DNA of 64,000 bases from Rhodovulum tesquicola (GTDB lineage Bacteria > Pseudomonadota > Alphaproteobacteria > Rhodobacterales > Rhodobacteraceae): positions 62,001 through 126,000 of the forward strand of contig NZ_JAMYDV010000002.1 of the NCBI RefSeq assembly GCF_024128855.1. The letters are read 5' to 3'. Positions 48,959 through 55,024 of this stretch are shown here, piece by piece. Both the position numbers and the translations under genes were made by a program. The notes under the pieces are model-generated. The model was not told where the DNA came from and did not search any database. It saw only the letters and a program-made list of their open reading frames with translations. Position 1 is the stretch's first letter; every line of letters begins with the position of its first letter.

Positions 48959-49023
48959 CGACAGGCGGGCAGGGGCGGGGAATCCTGCGGCCATTGCAGC
49001 ATTCCACTAGACAGGAGGTCGAG

Positions 49024-49443
49024 ATGGTCGAGAAATCGCACAGCGCGGGCTTCTGGCCCTCGCTTTACGAACCCTTCCGCGGGCTTGGCGCGCGGATGGC
49101 CGACTGGTTCGCGCCCGCATCCGAGGCGTCGGTCGGCGAGGACGGCTACAGCATCCGGATGGAACTGCCGGGGGTCGAGGAAAAGGACGTCAAGGTGTCG
49201 CTGGCCGATGGCGTCGTCACCGTGCGCGGCGAAAAGCAGTCGAGCCGCGAGGAAAAGGGCGAGACCTGGTATTTCAGCGAACGCGAATATGGCGCGTTCT
49301 CGCGCAGCTTCCGGTTGCCGCCCGATGCCGATGCGGGCGCGGTCAAGGCCGACCTGAAGGACGGCGTGCTGACGGTCAGCATCGGCAAGAAGGCGTCCGA
49401 CGAGACGGCAGGCAGCACCGAGATCCCGATCGGCCGGGGCTGA
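49024..49443 (+). CDS. small heat-shock protein, Hsp20 family
   Basis: A 139-residue chaperone with an alpha-crystallin domain at about 40-130: YSIRMELPGVEEKDVKVSL, GVVTVRGEKQ, YGAFSRSFRLP and the AxLKDGVLTV strand (DLKDGVLTVSIGKK). It holds unfolded proteins in a refoldable state. AGGAGG lies 5 bases before the ATG at 49024, excluding the upstream in-frame ATG at 48994. A clear sigma-32 promoter was not found. It is convergent with the membrane-stress-like cluster at 49487-54951, separated by a terminator. Confidence 0.93.
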   Translation: MVEKSHSAGFWPSLYEPFRGLGARMADWFAPASEASVGEDGYSIRMELPGVEEKDVKVSLADGVVTVRGEKQSSREEKGETWYFSEREYGAFSRSFRLPPDADAGAVKADLKDGVLTVSIGKKASDETAGSTEIPIGRG

Positions 49444-49486: not shown

Positions 49487-50623
49487 CTATTGCCAGTCGA
49501 CCATGCCCACGGCGCCCTGATCGAGCGCCACCAGATAGCCCACCGCCCCCGCAAGGATCAGCCCCAGCAGGACGGCAAGGGCGATCTTCCAGACCGACCA
49601 GGGCCGTTCACCCTGCACCCGCCCCGTGCGCCCGTTCACCACGAAGCGATAGCTCTTGCCGCGATAACGATAGGCGGCCAGCCAGACCGGCAGCAGGATA
49701 TGCTTGAAGGTGACGTCCGAAACCTCGGTATCCAGCCGGTCGATGCGTTGCTGGTCGCCGCCGATGTCGCGCATCACGTCGCGCCGGATCTGGCCGTCCA
49801 TGACCGCGCGCGCCGTGGCAAGGCCCTGCTCCAGACCGACGGTATAGCCCTCGGCGCCGAACCCCGCGAGATAGTCGGGCCGGTAGGGTTCCAGTTGCGC
49901 AAGGTCCCAGGGTTGCAGCCCGTCGGTATGCCGCCGCGGCAGGCTGGTCGAGCCCAGCACCAGCACATCGTCGAAATCCCGCGCCACCCGGCCCGAAACC
50001 GGGCTCCAGCGGATCGTCTGCACCCGCTCGGCCTGGCGCTGGCCGTTGCGTGTGACCATCCGCGTCTCGTAATGGATCGTGCCGCGCGCGCCGGAATAGC
50101 GTGACCTCGTCCGGGCGTCATAGGTCCAGAAGGGGACATAGATGCCCTGCATCGGGCGGCCCCGGCGGGCGAATTCGGTCAGTCCCGAGGGTGCGAACCA
50201 TAGCCGGCCCAGCCAGTCGGTCATCGCCTTGTGCGCCTCGCGTTCGCTGAGCGCGAAGGGCAGCACGGCCTGCGGCTTGATCCGGCGCTGGCGGCCGGTA
50301 TCGGTGACGACGGGGGTCGCGCAGAACGGACAGGAAGCGGCATGGGTCTGGTCGTCCAGTTCGACCTCGGCGCCGCAATTGGGGCATTTCAGCCGCCGCA
50401 CCTCCTCCATGTCGTCGGGGGGCAGGGCGGCGGCCAGCGCGGCGCGATAGTCCAGCTCGTGCAGGTGCCGCGCGTCCGGTCCCGCCCCGGCGATCGGTTC
50501 GGCATGGCCACAATGGGCGCACACCAGTTGCCGCGCGCCCGGATCGTAGCGCAGGTTCGCGCCGCACTGGTCGCAGGGGAAGCGGTGGTCATGCGGCGCG
50601 GGCGGGGGCGCGGTGTCGGGCAT
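49487..50623 (-). CDS. double zinc-ribbon membrane protein (TFIIB-type)
   Basis: A 378-residue protein with two N-terminal zinc ribbons (Cys17/Cys20/Cys35/Cys38 and Cys80/Cys83/Cys98/Cys101), a central domain with repeated Trp/Tyr-rich strands (GIYVPFWTYDARTRSRY, LLPVWLAAYRYRGKSYRFVVNG) and one membrane segment near the C terminus (about 346-368). Proteins of this layout are encoded next to SPFH-domain genes in other bacteria; B. subtilis YdjG is a remembered counterpart, known from a PspA-linked operon. It starts 18 bp after the SPFH gene and is the last gene of a six-gene run. The exact role is unknown. Confidence 0.75.
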   Translation of the reverse strand: MPDTAPPPAPHDHRFPCDQCGANLRYDPGARQLVCAHCGHAEPIAGAGPDARHLHELDYRAALAAALPPDDMEEVRRLKCPNCGAEVELDDQTHAASCPFCATPVVTDTGRQRRIKPQAVLPFALSEREAHKAMTDWLGRLWFAPSGLTEFARRGRPMQGIYVPFWTYDARTRSRYSGARGTIHYETRMVTRNGQRQAERVQTIRWSPVSGRVARDFDDVLVLGSTSLPRRHTDGLQPWDLAQLEPYRPDYLAGFGAEGYTVGLEQGLATARAVMDGQIRRDVMRDIGGDQQRIDRLDTEVSDVTFKHILLPVWLAAYRYRGKSYRFVVNGRTGRVQGERPWSVWKIALAVLLGLILAGAVGYLVALDQGAVGMVDWQ

Positions 50624-50641
50624 CGGGCGCAGGCGGCGCGA

Positions 50642-51742
50642 TCAGGCGTCAGGCGGGGGCGGAGGGGGCGCGACGGTGAAAAGCTGGGCAAGCTCCGTCA
50701 CCTCCTCGGCGCGTTTCCAGCCGTCCTGGCCCGGGGTCCAGACGAGACTCTCGCGCCGGAGCGTTCCGGCCATCGCCATCCGTCCCAGATCGGCCTTGGA
50801 GAATGGCCCCGTCGTCGCGCCCTTCTCGGCGATGTGCCAGACATGTTCGACCGGCGGGGGCGGCGGGGCGGCGCCGGGCATCGGCCCCCATGGCCCCTGC
50901 TGCGCGATCTGTGCGCCCATCGCCATGCCCATCCCGGCGCCGAGCCCCGCGGCCATGCCGCCGCCCTCCTGGCCTTGCGCCGATGTCATCGCCTCGGCCG
51001 CCGAATACTGGGTGAACCGGCCCAGATCGCCCGCGATCCCCATAGAGGTGCGCTTGTCCAGCGCCTTTTCCACCTCGGGCGGCAGGCTGATATTCTCGAT
51101 GTAGAATTCGGGCATGCTCAGCCCGTAAGCCTCCAGCGTCTTCGAGACTTCGGTCGCGATCAGCCGGCCCAGGTCGTCGGTATTCGCCGCCATGTCCAGC
51201 ACCGGGATGCCGGACCGCGCGATCACCCGGGAAAATTCCTGCACGATGATGTTGCGGATCTGGAAGGCGATCTCGTCGCGGGTGAACTCGCCATCGGTGC
51301 CCACGATCTCGACCATGAAGCGGGCGGGGTCGGTGATGCGGATCGCGCAGGTCCCGAAGGCGCGCAGCCTGAGCGGCCCGAATTCCGGATCGCGCAGGAT
51401 CACCGGGTTCTTGGTGCCCCATTTCAGGCCGGGAAAGCGGGTGGTGGCGACGAAATAGATCTCGGACTTGAAGGGCGAGCGGAAGCCGTGATCCCAGTGC
51501 TGCAGGGTCGTCAGCACCGGCATGTTGTTGGTCTCCAGCATGTAGAGCCCGGGCGTGAACACATCGGCCAGTTGCCCCTCATGGACGAAGACGGCGGCCT
51601 GCCCCTCGCGCACGGTCAGCTTGGCGCCATACTTGATCGCGTGGCCCTGCCGCTCGAACCGCCAGACCATGGTATCGCGGGTATCGTCCACCCAGTGGAT
51701 GACGTCGATGAACTCGCCGGACAGGAAGTCGAAGATGCGCAT
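50642..51742 (-). CDS. SPFH-domain protein with C-terminal GYF_2 domain
   Basis: A 366-residue protein. Residues about 20-235 form an SPFH (stomatin/band 7-like) domain of the YdjI branch, with QAAVFVHEGQLADVFTPGLY, RDPEFGPLRLRAFGTCAIRITDP and LGRLIATEVSKTLEAYGL. A Gly/Met/Ala-rich hydrophobic link (about 250-285) leads to a GYF_2 domain (about 300-356: HIAEKGATTGPFSKADL and SLVWTPGQDGWKRAEEV), a putative peptide-binding module. There is no signal peptide, so it would sit on the cytosolic membrane face as an oligomeric scaffold. It is followed at 18 bp by the zinc-ribbon membrane gene. Confidence 0.85.
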   Translation of the reverse strand: MRIFDFLSGEFIDVIHWVDDTRDTMVWRFERQGHAIKYGAKLTVREGQAAVFVHEGQLADVFTPGLYMLETNNMPVLTTLQHWDHGFRSPFKSEIYFVATTRFPGLKWGTKNPVILRDPEFGPLRLRAFGTCAIRITDPARFMVEIVGTDGEFTRDEIAFQIRNIIVQEFSRVIARSGIPVLDMAANTDDLGRLIATEVSKTLEAYGLSMPEFYIENISLPPEVEKALDKRTSMGIAGDLGRFTQYSAAEAMTSAQGQEGGGMAAGLGAGMGMAMGAQIAQQGPWGPMPGAAPPPPPVEHVWHIAEKGATTGPFSKADLGRMAMAGTLRRESLVWTPGQDGWKRAEEVTELAQLFTVAPPPPPPDA

Positions 51743-51823
51743 GGGTCTGGTCCTTCGGGTCGGGTTGCTCCGAGTATACGCGCGACGCCCCGCTCAGGTC
51801 ACGCACAAGCGCGACCCCGCCGG

Positions 51824-52762
51824 TCAGCTTTCGCCCCCCATCAGTTCCGTCGCGATGGTCTCGATGATGGGGCGGGCCTCGGGCTCGCGCATGCCGGGGC
51901 GCAGGCGGCGGTCGTAGAGGATGCGAAGCAGCAATTCGTCATGCGGTGTGAGCAGCGCGAATTCCTCGTCATCGTTGAAGATCGAGGGGCGGGCGGTCGG
52001 GCTGTCATTGGCCAGCCCCAGCCCCTGGGCCAGTTCCTCGTGGATGCAGGACCGGCGCAGACGGTCGGGATGTTCGCCCCGGATCACCGCGACCGCGTGG
52101 GAATAGACGCTCGACTCGCCGCTGGAAAACGCCAGCACCAGGCAGAAGGTCGAGCGCGGCATGCCCTCGATCGTGCGGATGGCGGTGGCGTCGATGCCGG
52201 GCACCATCGCACGCAGGCGCGGCCCGATGGTGCGGCGTTCGTCCTCGTTCAGGATCAGGATGTGGAAATTCGCCTTTTCCGGTTCGACCTGCCGCATCGC
52301 CAGCCCGGTCAGCCCGGACAGCCGCCGGGCATAGGCGTCGATCTCGGCCCGGTCCTTCGCGCGCCGCGTTTCGGTCACGGTGTCGCCGAAGACCAGCCCC
52401 AGCCCGATCGGCTGTTGCCAGCGGCGCAGTCGGCTGGGCGTTTCGCGCGGCACAAGCGCGCCCGCGCGCGTGACATATTCATCGTAAAGCGCGATGCGGA
52501 TGAAGTTCTCGACCACGGCCCGGCGCGCGAAGGGCGCGTCGGGGGCAGCGCCCTCGGTCCGGAGCAGCCCGCGCGACAGAAGGTCGGCCTCCACCCGTGC
52601 AAAATGCCGGGCGATCGCCTCGCTTTCAGGCGAGGGCGCTGGGCGCACCAGATCGGGGCGCGGCACCGGGCGCGGGCTGGTCGCAGGGGGCGCGACCTGA
52701 CAGCCGGCCAGCGCCCCCAGGACGAAACCGCATATCAGAAGGGGGCGGAGGCGCAGCTTCAC
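51824..52762 (-). CDS. DUF2927 family lipoprotein
   Basis: A 312-residue lipoprotein: the signal peptide ends with LAGC, so Cys21 would carry lipid, and a Pro-rich spacer follows. The C-terminal half has the DUF2927 pattern and includes CIHEELAQGLGLAND at about 239-253, an HEE motif resembling a metallopeptidase active site, and FNDDEEFALLTPHDE. Neither activity nor target is known. The start is a GTG 7 bp after the TelA stop, so translation is probably coupled. It is the only periplasm-facing protein of the cluster. Confidence 0.78.
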   Translation of the reverse strand: MKLRLRPLLICGFVLGALAGCQVAPPATSPRPVPRPDLVRPAPSPESEAIARHFARVEADLLSRGLLRTEGAAPDAPFARRAVVENFIRIALYDEYVTRAGALVPRETPSRLRRWQQPIGLGLVFGDTVTETRRAKDRAEIDAYARRLSGLTGLAMRQVEPEKANFHILILNEDERRTIGPRLRAMVPGIDATAIRTIEGMPRSTFCLVLAFSSGESSVYSHAVAVIRGEHPDRLRRSCIHEELAQGLGLANDSPTARPSIFNDDEEFALLTPHDELLLRILYDRRLRPGMREPEARPIIETIATELMGGES

Positions 52763-52769
52763 CGAAGTA

Positions 52770-53948
52770 TCAGGCCCCCGGAACCGCGCCCGCGGCCTGC
52801 GCGCGGGACTTGGCAGAGGCCAGCGTGTCGCGCAGTTCGGACTCCATCTTCTTGAGGTCTTCCTCGGCCCGGGCGCGGTGCGCCTTGCCCGCGTCGGCGA
52901 TCTGCAGGCTTTCCTCGATGGTGGCGACCAGCGTGGCATTGGCCGTCTTGACCGCCTCGATGTCGAACACGCCACGCTCCATCTCTTCGCGAACGATCTT
53001 GTTGGCCTCGCGCAGGTTCTCTGCATTGGCGGTCAGCAGCTCGTTGGTCAGGTCGGACGCTGCGCGCACCGCCTCGGCCGCTTCGCGCGAGCGCTGGATC
53101 GTCACCGCCTGCGCAAGCTGGGTTTCCCAGAGCGGCACGGTATTGACCAGCGTCGAGTTGATCTTGGTGACCAGCGACTTGTCGTTTTCCTGCACCAGCC
53201 GGATCGAAGGCAGCGACTGCATCGTGACCTGGCGGGTCAGCTTGAGATCGTACACGCGCCGTTCCAGATCGTCCCGCGCGGCGCGCAGGTCGCGCAGCTC
53301 CTGCGCCCTGATGACCTGGTCGCCCTCGGGCGCGGCGCTGACCGCGGCCTCGCGCGCGGGGATGTCGCGGCTGTCCAGATCGGCCAGCTTCGCCTCGCCT
53401 GCCGCGATGTAAAGCGCCAGTTCGTCGTAGAAGCCCAGCGTCTTTTCATAAAGCTTGTCCAGCGACTTGATGTCCTTGAGCAGCCGGTGCTCATGGGTCA
53501 GCAGATCGTCGGTGATCTTGTCGATCTGGCCCTGCACGGTCTCGAACTGCGCCATGAAATTCGCGATGGGCGCGGCACGGCGGGTCAGTTTCTCCCACCA
53601 GCTGCGCTTGCGCCCGGCATCCAGTTCGCTGACCGAAAAGCCGCGGATCGTGGTCACGATCTCGCGCAAGGAGTCGCCCGCGGGCCCAGCATCCTTGTTG
53701 CGCACATCGGCCAGCATCGCCTGGCTGATCTGTTGCAACTCGGCCTGGGCCGAGGCGCCGAAGGAGATGATCGAGCCGCTGTCGGCCATGTCGATCTCGG
53801 CCATGCGGGTGCGGATGCCCAGCGCCTGCTTGTCGTCGGCGGCGGCCAGCGGCACCACCTCGGCGGCGGGGGCGGGCAGAATCACGGCGCTCAGTTGCTC
53901 GACCTCGGAAAGGGCGGCCTGGGCCTTCTGTCTGACGTTCTCGGACAT
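52770..53948 (-). CDS. telA: TelA family toxic-anion-resistance-type protein
   Basis: A 392-residue, highly helical cytosolic protein of the TelA family, recognised by FMAQFETVQGQIDKITDDLL, MQSLPSIRLVQENDKSLVTKIN and WETQLAQAVTIQRSREAA. The family is named for tellurite resistance on plasmids, but chromosomal members are tied to membrane stress and cell-envelope functions; the mechanism is unknown. The ATG at 53948 is preferred to the GTG 3 codons upstream because GGAGAG is correctly spaced from it. The upstream xpaC-like stop overlaps this leader. The TelA-XpaC pair also occurs in Firmicutes. Confidence 0.9.
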   Translation of the reverse strand: MSENVRQKAQAALSEVEQLSAVILPAPAAEVVPLAAADDKQALGIRTRMAEIDMADSGSIISFGASAQAELQQISQAMLADVRNKDAGPAGDSLREIVTTIRGFSVSELDAGRKRSWWEKLTRRAAPIANFMAQFETVQGQIDKITDDLLTHEHRLLKDIKSLDKLYEKTLGFYDELALYIAAGEAKLADLDSRDIPAREAAVSAAPEGDQVIRAQELRDLRAARDDLERRVYDLKLTRQVTMQSLPSIRLVQENDKSLVTKINSTLVNTVPLWETQLAQAVTIQRSREAAEAVRAASDLTNELLTANAENLREANKIVREEMERGVFDIEAVKTANATLVATIEESLQIADAGKAHRARAEEDLKKMESELRDTLASAKSRAQAAGAVPGA

Positions 53949-53953
53949 GGTTT

Positions 53954-54868
53954 TCACTCTCCAGAATTTGGCATGGCGGACGCAGTGCGCACGCCTTCAC
54001 GCTGCAGCCTGTCGCGCAGCACTTCGATTTCGACGTCCAGATCGGCCCGGTCGTCCAGCAACAGGGCGCGCGTTCGGGCCGCGAAATTTTCCTCAAGATC
54101 GTTCAGCAGCGCCTCGTAATCCGCCCGCACGCCCGCGTCGCGGGTGCGGGCGTAAAGCTCGGCGAACTTCACGGTCGCATCACGCGCGCCCAGCAGGTAG
54201 ACCACCAGATAGCGCCGCGCGGACGTCAGGTCGCGGGGATCTTCCTCGACCGAGCGGAACATCTCGCGCACGGTGGCCTGGAACCGCTCGAGTCGCGCCT
54301 CCAGCCGCCGGTCGCCCGCGCGAAGGATCGCCTCGGACATGGTGCGCAGGTGCTTCTCGGCCTCGTCGATCACGCGCGCCACCCGCTCGCGCTGCAGGCT
54401 GTCGGCGCCCTCGATCCCCTTGTCGCGCATCGGGTCCACACCAAAGGCGGCGGAGTGCAGGACGATCCCGAGGACGGCAAAGATCGCGGGGGCCAGGAAC
54501 CCCGCACCGGGCGCCATGCCCGCCAGGAACAGTCCCGCCCCGGTGAGTGCCGAGCCGAACATCTTGCGCGGGATCGCCGGGCGGCGGGCGACCTTGCGCG
54601 CGGCCCAGGCATCCTCGGCCTTCAGCCCCTCGCGCGTCAGCCAGGCCGCCAGCAGAAGCACGCCCAGCGCGATCAGCGTGAGCGCCATCCCGGTCGGATC
54701 GGACAGGAAGGCGCGCGGCACAAGGGCCAGCGGCACCACGAACATCAGGTTGGCCCGGCCGCGGGACCGGGCGGCACGCTGGCCCTGGAACGGGTGACGC
54801 GGCGGCGGCGCGCTCCCGTCGCCGGGCCGCGGATCGGGGCTGTATTTCCCGCCATAGCGCTGTGCCAT
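53954..54868 (-). CDS. XpaC-family (BCIP-hydrolysis-type) membrane protein
   Basis: A 304-residue protein with a Pro/Gly-rich basic N terminus, then two hydrophobic hairpins (about 40-85 and 105-140, including MFVVPLALVPRAFL, LTLIALGVLLLAAWL and FLAPAIFAVLGIVLHSAAF) and a helical cytosolic C-terminal half (about 150-304). This matches the 5-bromo-4-chloroindolyl-phosphate hydrolysis (XpaC) family, whose true role is not enzymatic as far as known. It is encoded directly before TelA, as in other genomes, and its ATG overlaps the stop of a 27-residue membrane peptide (TGATG). Confidence 0.82.
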   Translation of the reverse strand: MAQRYGGKYSPDPRPGDGSAPPPRHPFQGQRAARSRGRANLMFVVPLALVPRAFLSDPTGMALTLIALGVLLLAAWLTREGLKAEDAWAARKVARRPAIPRKMFGSALTGAGLFLAGMAPGAGFLAPAIFAVLGIVLHSAAFGVDPMRDKGIEGADSLQRERVARVIDEAEKHLRTMSEAILRAGDRRLEARLERFQATVREMFRSVEEDPRDLTSARRYLVVYLLGARDATVKFAELYARTRDAGVRADYEALLNDLEENFAARTRALLLDDRADLDVEIEVLRDRLQREGVRTASAMPNSGE

Positions 54869-54951
54869 CAGCCGCCCCCCACGATCGCGACATAGAGGAT
54901 CAGCGCGACCAGCAGGAAGAACGCCAGTTTCTGTAGCCCGGATTCGGACAT
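54868..54951 (-). CDS. 27-residue single-pass membrane peptide
   Basis: A 27-codon frame starting MSESGLQKLAFF and ending IVGGG. Residues 9-24 are a continuous hydrophobic stretch long enough to cross the membrane, after a short polar N terminus with one lysine. Its TGA overlaps the ATG of the XpaC-family gene as TGATG, the arrangement of translational coupling, and GGGATGGG lies upstream as a possible ribosome-binding site. It is too short for most gene finders. No homolog is recognised, but the overlap and hydrophobicity argue for a real first gene of the cluster. Confidence 0.6.
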   Translation of the reverse strand: MSESGLQKLAFFLLVALILYVAIVGGG

Positions 54952-54976
54952 CGACCCATCCCGTTTCGCTCTCCCC

Positions 54977-55005
54977 ATCATATGGGATGCGAGCGCGTTC
55001 CGAAA
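54977..55005 (-). promoter_or_regulatory. candidate promoter of the XpaC-TelA cluster
   Basis: On the minus strand TATGAT (54982-54977) is a 5/6 match to a -10 box, 25 bp before the 27-residue peptide gene. The sequence 17 bp upstream is TTTCGG, a weak -35. The region lies in the 73-bp gap after rluB and is the only likely start point for the six-gene run. Confidence 0.4.
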
Positions 55006-55024
55006 AGCAAGCCCGACGCGGGCC

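Follow-up and report, generated by a model that had tools for sequence, protein, structure and literature searches.

A conserved six-gene locus of the Rhodobacteraceae joining TelA and XpaC to an SPFH–zinc-ribbon pair: a candidate inner-membrane maintenance system

In Bacillus subtilis, yceH codes for a TelA family protein and yceCDE for TerD proteins. The yceCDEFGH operon, in which yceF is a TerC gene (PMC10550928), is listed together with xpaC-yaaN and pspA-ydjGHI as controlled by sigma-W (PMC3498285). It was reported that the foci of YdjI and PspA depend on the membrane proteins YdjG and YdjH, and that alkaline shock leads to misshapen cells when YdjG or YdjH is lacking (PMC8581546). In YdjG, two zinc ribbons are combined with a YpeB-related domain and a transmembrane (TM) segment (PMC11237479), and in an Enterococcus liaR mutant xpaC was up 7-fold (PMC10269926). 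Here we describe a run of six genes in Rhodovulum tesquicola, which codes for a membrane peptide, XpaC, TelA, a DUF2927 lipoprotein, an SPFH-GYF protein and a double zinc-ribbon protein. It lies in a 64,000-nucleotide stretch (contig NZ_JAMYDV010000002.1, positions 62,001 to 126,000; hereafter the window) of a 3.5 Mb genome. We found that the linkage of these genes is far above chance in the family, and we give an even chance to the reading that they act in the family as a single conserved unit, in which the products would form a complex for maintenance of the inner membrane, comparable in its working to PspA-YdjGHI of B. subtilis. Among the papers listed by searches of the open-licence literature, none on the combination of TelA, XpaC, DUF2927, SPFH and zinc ribbon was found; an earlier sequence-only reading of this DNA had suggested that it could be an undescribed system.

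As in pspA-ydjGHI, the SPFH gene of the window stands next to the gene for a double zinc-ribbon membrane protein, and the B. subtilis system places a soluble partner at the membrane (PMC8581546, PMC11237479). In contrast to that system, TelA and XpaC are present here and PspA is not, the SPFH protein carries a GYF domain instead of a zinc ribbon, and a DUF2927 lipoprotein and a microprotein are additional. PspA (PF04012) was matched neither in the operon nor elsewhere in the window's genome; because of this, the operon could be called Psp-like at most by analogy. The SPFH domain itself was assigned to PF13421, a family that is also matched in the B. subtilis genome, and the absence of a TM segment from the SPFH protein was judged by eye. 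The firmicute xpaC-yaaN unit, which consists of xpaC, yaaN and a short transcript segment, has XpaC followed by TelA as here, whereas the window's operon adds the SPFH–zinc-ribbon pair, DUF2927 and the microprotein. With yceCDEFGH and the Ter systems the TelA family is held in common; adjacency to TerC is found in a part of the relatives, but not in the window.

Linkage and modularity of the genes

Whole genomes of 100 genera of the Rhodobacteraceae were examined in one survey. By profile search, TelA was found in 89 of them, and DUF2927 in 95, usually in two or more copies. The neighbourhoods of 82 of the 89 TelA genomes were inspected, the window included and seven left out, and in 70 of the 82 loci XpaC, TelA, DUF2927, SPFH and zinc ribbon followed each other in this order on one strand. 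The conserved linkage in other Rhodobacteraceae, the absence of which had been named in the sequence-only reading as its refutation, was thus observed. The packing of the genes was looser, with every gap at or below 220 bp in only 35 of the 82. Among the 12 departing loci, two are cut by a contig end; the other ten are real departures, because at least 2.6 kb of sequence is present where the missing gene would be expected. A second set of 80 named loci was chosen by similarity of the zinc-ribbon protein out of at least 585 matches, and all five genes were present in 64 of them. The two sets have organisms in common, and their counts are not additive. The remaining 16 named loci comprise 13 that end 0.7 kb or less upstream of the genes found and three that do not (L157, L178 and L215). 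Among the matches listed, the closest named match of the zinc-ribbon protein was from Rhodovulum steppense (98% identity).

Outside the family, the sampling covered 190 genomes of the class, three of them from the window's family, and 299 genomes of the phylum. Four genomes of four other alphaproteobacterial families (L138–L141) carry XpaC, TelA, SPFH and zinc ribbon without DUF2927. No peptide match was detected in these four, even when the stretch searched ran from 600 nt ahead of the start of the XpaC open reading frame (ORF) to 900 nt beyond it. The zinc-ribbon profile matched 35 of the 299 phylum genomes. Twelve loci outside the class were fetched, five of them from one genus, and in 11 the zinc-ribbon gene adjoins an SPFH gene, the contig of the twelfth ending there; two of the 11 SPFH scores were weak (23–25 bits) and one SPFH was split over two ORFs. 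None of the 12 loci gave a match to TelA, XpaC or DUF2927. The pair was also found on a plasmid of Vibrio coralliilyticus. SPFH–zinc ribbon therefore looks like an old two-gene unit that was joined by TelA/XpaC in the Alphaproteobacteria, while DUF2927 and the microprotein, judging from their distribution and not from a tree, would be later additions in the window's family. A TelA/XpaC module and an SPFH/zinc-ribbon module are indeed united here, as proposed from the letters of the window, and the parts also occur apart. The comparison with TelA/XpaC loci and with YdjFGHI that had been drawn in the sequence-only reading was thus correct.

In three loci of other families (L143, L149 and L152), TelA was observed to come first, with an XpaC-like gene 1.4–1.7 kb away on the same strand and sequence between them. 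SPFH and zinc-ribbon matches were absent from the fetched stretches of these loci, and the arrangement perhaps represents another TelA system.

The genes, the microprotein and the lipoprotein

The coordinates of the six co-directional ORFs are those reported earlier, and are given in Table 1. From 5' to 3', a 1-nt overlap is followed by gaps of 5, 7, 81 and 18 nt, in keeping with the limit of 81 nt that had been claimed.

Table 1. Features of the operon and its upstream region (window positions)
Feature	Family	Position	Strand	Remarks
Membrane peptide (27 residues)		54868-54951	minus	MSESGLQKLAFFLLVALILYVAIVGGG; putative single TM; stop overlaps XpaC start by 1 nt
XpaC	PF10112	53954-54868	minus	about 4 predicted TM helices, then conserved, putatively cytosolic domain (topology by eye)
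TelA	PF05816	52770-53948	minus	ATG start; GTG at 53957 possible; predicted soluble, helical
DUF2927 lipoprotein	PF11150	51824-52762	minus	GTG start; lipobox LAGC by eye
SPFH-GYF	Band_7_1, PF13421; GYF_2, PF14237	50642-51742	minus	proline-rich linker and tail
Double zinc-ribbon protein		49487-50623	minus	two ribbons, conserved domain, C-terminal TM (TM by eye)
rluB–peptide intergenic region		54952-55024	minus	contains CTTTTCGG...CATCCCATAT

Four of the proteins exceeded the Pfam cut-offs by far: XpaC with 98.6 bits (cut-off 29.8; E 6e-28), TelA with 359 bits over residues 48-377 (cut-off 30; E 3e-107), the DUF2927 protein with 207.8 bits (cut-off 26.2; E 2.5e-61), and the SPFH-GYF protein with 333.8 bits for PF13421 (cut-off 24; E 5e-100) and 66.7 bits for GYF_2 (cut-off 25.8; E 2e-18). 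By sequence comparison, no solved relative of TelA was found. The ribbon matches of the zinc-ribbon protein were weak and all under the Pfam cut-offs; its Cys17/20/35/38 and Cys80/83/98/101, corresponding to two Cys4 ribbons, were invariant in 14 relatives. In PADLOC this protein gave two weak matches (E ~0.05) and four other proteins gave none, the peptide being outside the scan, and assignment to a defence system was rejected. A proline-rich stretch at the N-terminus of the window's XpaC was considered as a target of the GYF domain and was also rejected, as it is unconserved across relatives.

The peptide was traced with a profile built from 12 seeds taken from the loci searched, at a threshold of 12 bits. 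It was found directly before XpaC in 127 of 152 upstream regions (63/81 in the family set, 63/64 in the named set and 1/7 in others), and in a wider stretch in 132 of 152 (family, 68/81). At the same threshold, reverse complements and three base shuffles gave 0 of 152 each, and reverse complements of the wider stretch gave no match either. Six family loci lacked any hit in the wider scan; in one of them, L060, a comparable peptide is visible on inspection. The peptide is typically MSETGLQKLAFVLLVILILYVSIAGGV (27 residues) or MSGTGVQKLAYAALLVLLFGVCTGVLGGL (29 residues). The ratio of the proportions of nonsynonymous to synonymous differences (pN/pS) was 0.36 over 1614 non-independent pairs from the 113 peptides that scored above 20 bits and had an identifiable start codon. 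The window's peptide was without a match in Pfam or NCBIfam, and two longer forms had none in Pfam. Judging from this conservation, the peptide is a genuine microprotein, and it belongs to no known family.

In 13 of 18 loci with two XpaC genes, some from genomes that belong to both sets, a further TM ORF of about 65 residues ends at the extra XpaC. When the same TM-ORF criterion was applied to other gene starts, it gave 0/147 for TelA, 0/143 for DUF2927, 1/147 for SPFH and 13/153 for zinc ribbon, the last gene being sometimes preceded by another membrane protein. XpaC and the peptide are both absent from two Paracoccus records and from L112, in which TelA, DUF2927, SPFH and zinc ribbon are retained. 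Because of this co-duplication and co-loss, the peptide and XpaC behave as a pair.

The DUF2927 protein starts with an apparent signal sequence, and the lipobox Cys is shared by at least 90% of 56 aligned rows. Near the C-terminus it has the motif xEExxQxxGLxND...SIFND...LTxxDxxLLxxLY. Within EExxQxxGxxN, both Glu and the Gly were kept in every one of the 143 rows of the family and named sets that scored above 60 bits, and the Gln in 142 of them; among class rows (above 25 bits), both Glu and the Gln were kept in 20 of 22 with residues at the site. This motif differs from the metzincin zinc site HExxHxxGxxH/D. By hhalign against seven alphaproteobacterial matrixins (M10), it was placed on HExxHxxGxxH and the terminal helix on the LxxDDixgixxLYG helix, so that motif and helix are collinear in the two groups, with the zinc ligands replaced in DUF2927. 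The score was 23.3 (E 0.002, 86 columns, Probab 13%), compared with 22.4 for the best of 200 column shuffles and 18.1 for the reversed profile. The seven matrixins were chosen after an earlier mixed set of 23 M10 domains, from 30 loci, had given a Probab of 0.6%, and four unrelated families gave 0.1% each. DUF2927 had no zincin match in Pfam and no solved relative was found. On the strength of the collinear motif and helix, we lean towards regarding DUF2927 as a metzincin relative with replaced zinc ligands. A longer second DUF2927 protein was noticed in the same genome (G000:C3:118693-119298; L038:7535-8902), and in both loci checked (L037 and L038) the long DUF2927 gene is followed by one for a VWA_CoxE protein.

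As to the neighbours, an rluB-like gene was matched in 67 of the 82 family loci, in 63 of them 2.5 kb or less upstream. The claim that no unrelated gene interrupts the run stands for the window's operon, but it does not extend to the relatives: 13 of the 82 loci carry, between SPFH and zinc ribbon, ORFs that belong to one related group (for example L035:9897-10499, the one member scanned, which matches cytochrome b561, PF01292), and a few loci have other inserts. On the far side of the window's operon, an ORF at 48994-49443 on the plus strand resembles by eye the Hsp20-like downstream ORF of a group of six other loci; a carbohydrate-kinase-like gene comes next on the minus strand.

Upstream element and candidate promoters

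In the window, rluB lies 73 nt upstream of the peptide on the same strand. A terminator-like match was seen near the end of rluB, but such matches were no commoner than in shuffles. The 113 regions before the peptide gave 109 distinct ones. TTCCCCCTAG was present in 42 of the 109; its distance to the start codon is 64–69 nt in 34 of these, and YTANNTT follows 25–32 nt later in 38. The consensus of the element is TTCCCCCTAGCaa.cc..cc.c.cAtc.CcTAagTT, and about 40% of the loci share the promoter-like element TTCCCCCTAGCAA-N-CCTAAGTT. In the 100 whole genomes, there were 19 occurrences of the spaced pattern, of which 18 directly precede this operon, and one of the reversed pattern; the single occurrence of the spaced pattern off the operon was in a genome without TelA. 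Unspaced TTCCCCCTAGCR occurred 31 times, 19 of them at the operon, and its backward control 61 times. The upstream element is nearly private to this operon, and its role as a promoter is putative. TATA was found within 75 nt in 32 of the other 67 regions. Rfam gave no match in the window between 49000 and 55900, nor in ten of the 19 element-bearing loci. By eye, TTCCCCC could pair with the G-rich ribosome-binding site in a candidate hairpin.

Neither the window nor R. steppense has TTCCCCCTAGCAA-N-CCTAAGTT; both carry CTTTTCG...CATCCCATAT instead. When the window's operon was scanned with the sigma-70 consensus, no match was obtained in front of the peptide. TelA contains one site and the 81-bp gap between DUF2927 and SPFH another, compared with 0.4 expected. 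The single likely promoter proposed from the letters of the window is thus borne out only in part. The match in the gap (51773-51802, minus strand) could be an internal promoter of the SPFH–zinc-ribbon pair. A promoter of the RpoH type, suggested by CTTG...CCCATAT in the window, was considered and rejected: the spaced pattern was found in 3 of 109 regions (shuffled mean 0.5, maximum 3), and CTTG was not enriched (39 versus 38 in base shuffles). CYATAT was enriched upstream of the peptide (16 versus 3.3 in shuffles of the 109 regions), and so was TGATCC (13/109 versus 2.9, maximum 7), which is a sigma-E-type -35 hexamer in Rhodobacter sphaeroides.

How the locus may work

The proposed unit would be assembled as follows. 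The tail-anchored double zinc-ribbon protein would keep an oligomer of the SPFH-GYF protein on the cytosolic side of the membrane, the two having the roles of YdjG and YdjI. XpaC, with the microprotein as a partner subunit, would recruit soluble TelA, which would take the place that PspA has in Bacillus, so that TelA and XpaC would stand in for PspA and YdjH. On the periplasmic side, the DUF2927 lipoprotein would act as a sensor or bind a substrate. Expression would begin ahead of the microprotein, and in many genera the promoter would carry the nearly private upstream element. The whole may, as the sequence-only reading supposed, span cytosol to periplasm and respond to envelope stress. This reading draws on the gene order in 70 of the 82 family loci, on the same order without DUF2927 in four other families, and on the occurrence of the SPFH–zinc-ribbon pair in other classes and on the Vibrio plasmid. 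It also draws on the coding conservation of the microprotein and its pairing with XpaC, on the sigma-W control of the three B. subtilis operons, on the dependence of YdjI and PspA on YdjG and YdjH, on the rise of xpaC in the Enterococcus liaR mutant, and on the sensitivity of a Listeria TelA mutant to nisin and tellurite. A stronger form, in which the microprotein is an obligate XpaC subunit, DUF2927 is a metalloprotease-derived periplasmic sensor (EExxQ), and a dedicated single-target regulator serves the operon in many genera, together making up a lineage-defining trans-envelope stress machine, appears doubtful.

Several observations weigh against a common unit. The modules are separable. 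The ten real departures comprise two loci without DUF2927 (L057 and L106), one without XpaC, two with XpaC-TelA alone (L066 and L068), three with XpaC-TelA-DUF2927 alone and two without the zinc-ribbon gene; XpaC is missing in Paracoccus. In Rhodosalinus (L081 and L215, treated as one genome from equal TelA coordinates) XpaC-TelA-DUF2927 lies apart from SPFH–zinc ribbon. About 13 kb separates SPFH from zinc ribbon in Rhodovulum euryhalinum, and about 108 kb lies between the zinc-ribbon gene and TelA in Pacificoceanicola. A single obligate six-part complex is therefore not present everywhere. The likeness of the zinc-ribbon protein to YdjG, consisting of two Cys4 ribbons and a C-terminal hydrophobic stretch, is one of architecture only. 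PspA was over the cut-off in 21 of the 100 family genomes, in 19 of 89 with TelA and 2 of 11 without; a complementarity of PspA and TelA was rejected, the anti-correlation being absent. Finally, the paper on the RpoH regulon of R. sphaeroides mentions neither TelA nor tellurite in its main text (PMC3441632).

It is conceivable, if rather unlikely, that two modules, microprotein-XpaC-TelA-DUF2927 and SPFH–zinc ribbon, adjoin for a common stress need without forming one complex. The pair without TelA/XpaC in other classes, the two halves apart in Rhodosalinus and the sigma-70-like match in the gap before SPFH are consistent with this. On the other hand, the order XpaC-TelA-(DUF2927)-SPFH–zinc ribbon recurs in five alphaproteobacterial families.

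Less probable still is a function in metal loading or quality control of exported proteins, in which TerC would supply Mn, and DUF2927, XpaC/TelA and SPFH would serve folding or clearance. TerC was found upstream and co-directional in 16 of the 82 loci (for example L057, L060 and L065), at a distance of 300 nt or less from the XpaC ORF in 15 of them, and the yceF gene for TerC lies inside the operon of yceH. The strictly conserved acidic motif of DUF2927 could hold a metal, and TerC proteins metalate exported enzymes in B. subtilis (PMC10550928). However, TerC was not matched in 66 of the 82 loci, the window included, where RluB is upstream. That the operon serves tellurite resistance in the narrow sense, as the name TelA implies, seems very improbable: a review cites telA of R. 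sphaeroides as a tellurite locus (PMC6955997) and TerC neighbours occur in the same 16 loci, but a gene found in 89 of 100 genera seems too widespread for a metalloid that is rarely encountered, and a Listeria mutant in lmo1967 (YaaN/TelA) was hit harder by nisin (sensitivity 4-fold) than by tellurite (2-fold; cited in PMC12791056).

The names TelA (tellurite resistance) and XpaC (dye-substrate hydrolase) give no mechanism. Three points would come as a surprise to a specialist: the microprotein linked to XpaC, a promoter-like element that is nearly private to the operon, and the metzincin origin that DUF2927 may have. The microprotein adds a family without a Pfam or NCBIfam model in the copies searched, and DUF2927 may be a candidate for descent from metzincins. 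The cis-element points almost only at this operon, so its binder could be isolated directly. The fixed order in five families ties TelA and XpaC to an SPFH/zinc-ribbon pair like that which places PspA in Bacillus, and the question that results for the Rhodobacteraceae is what role TelA has where PspA is missing.

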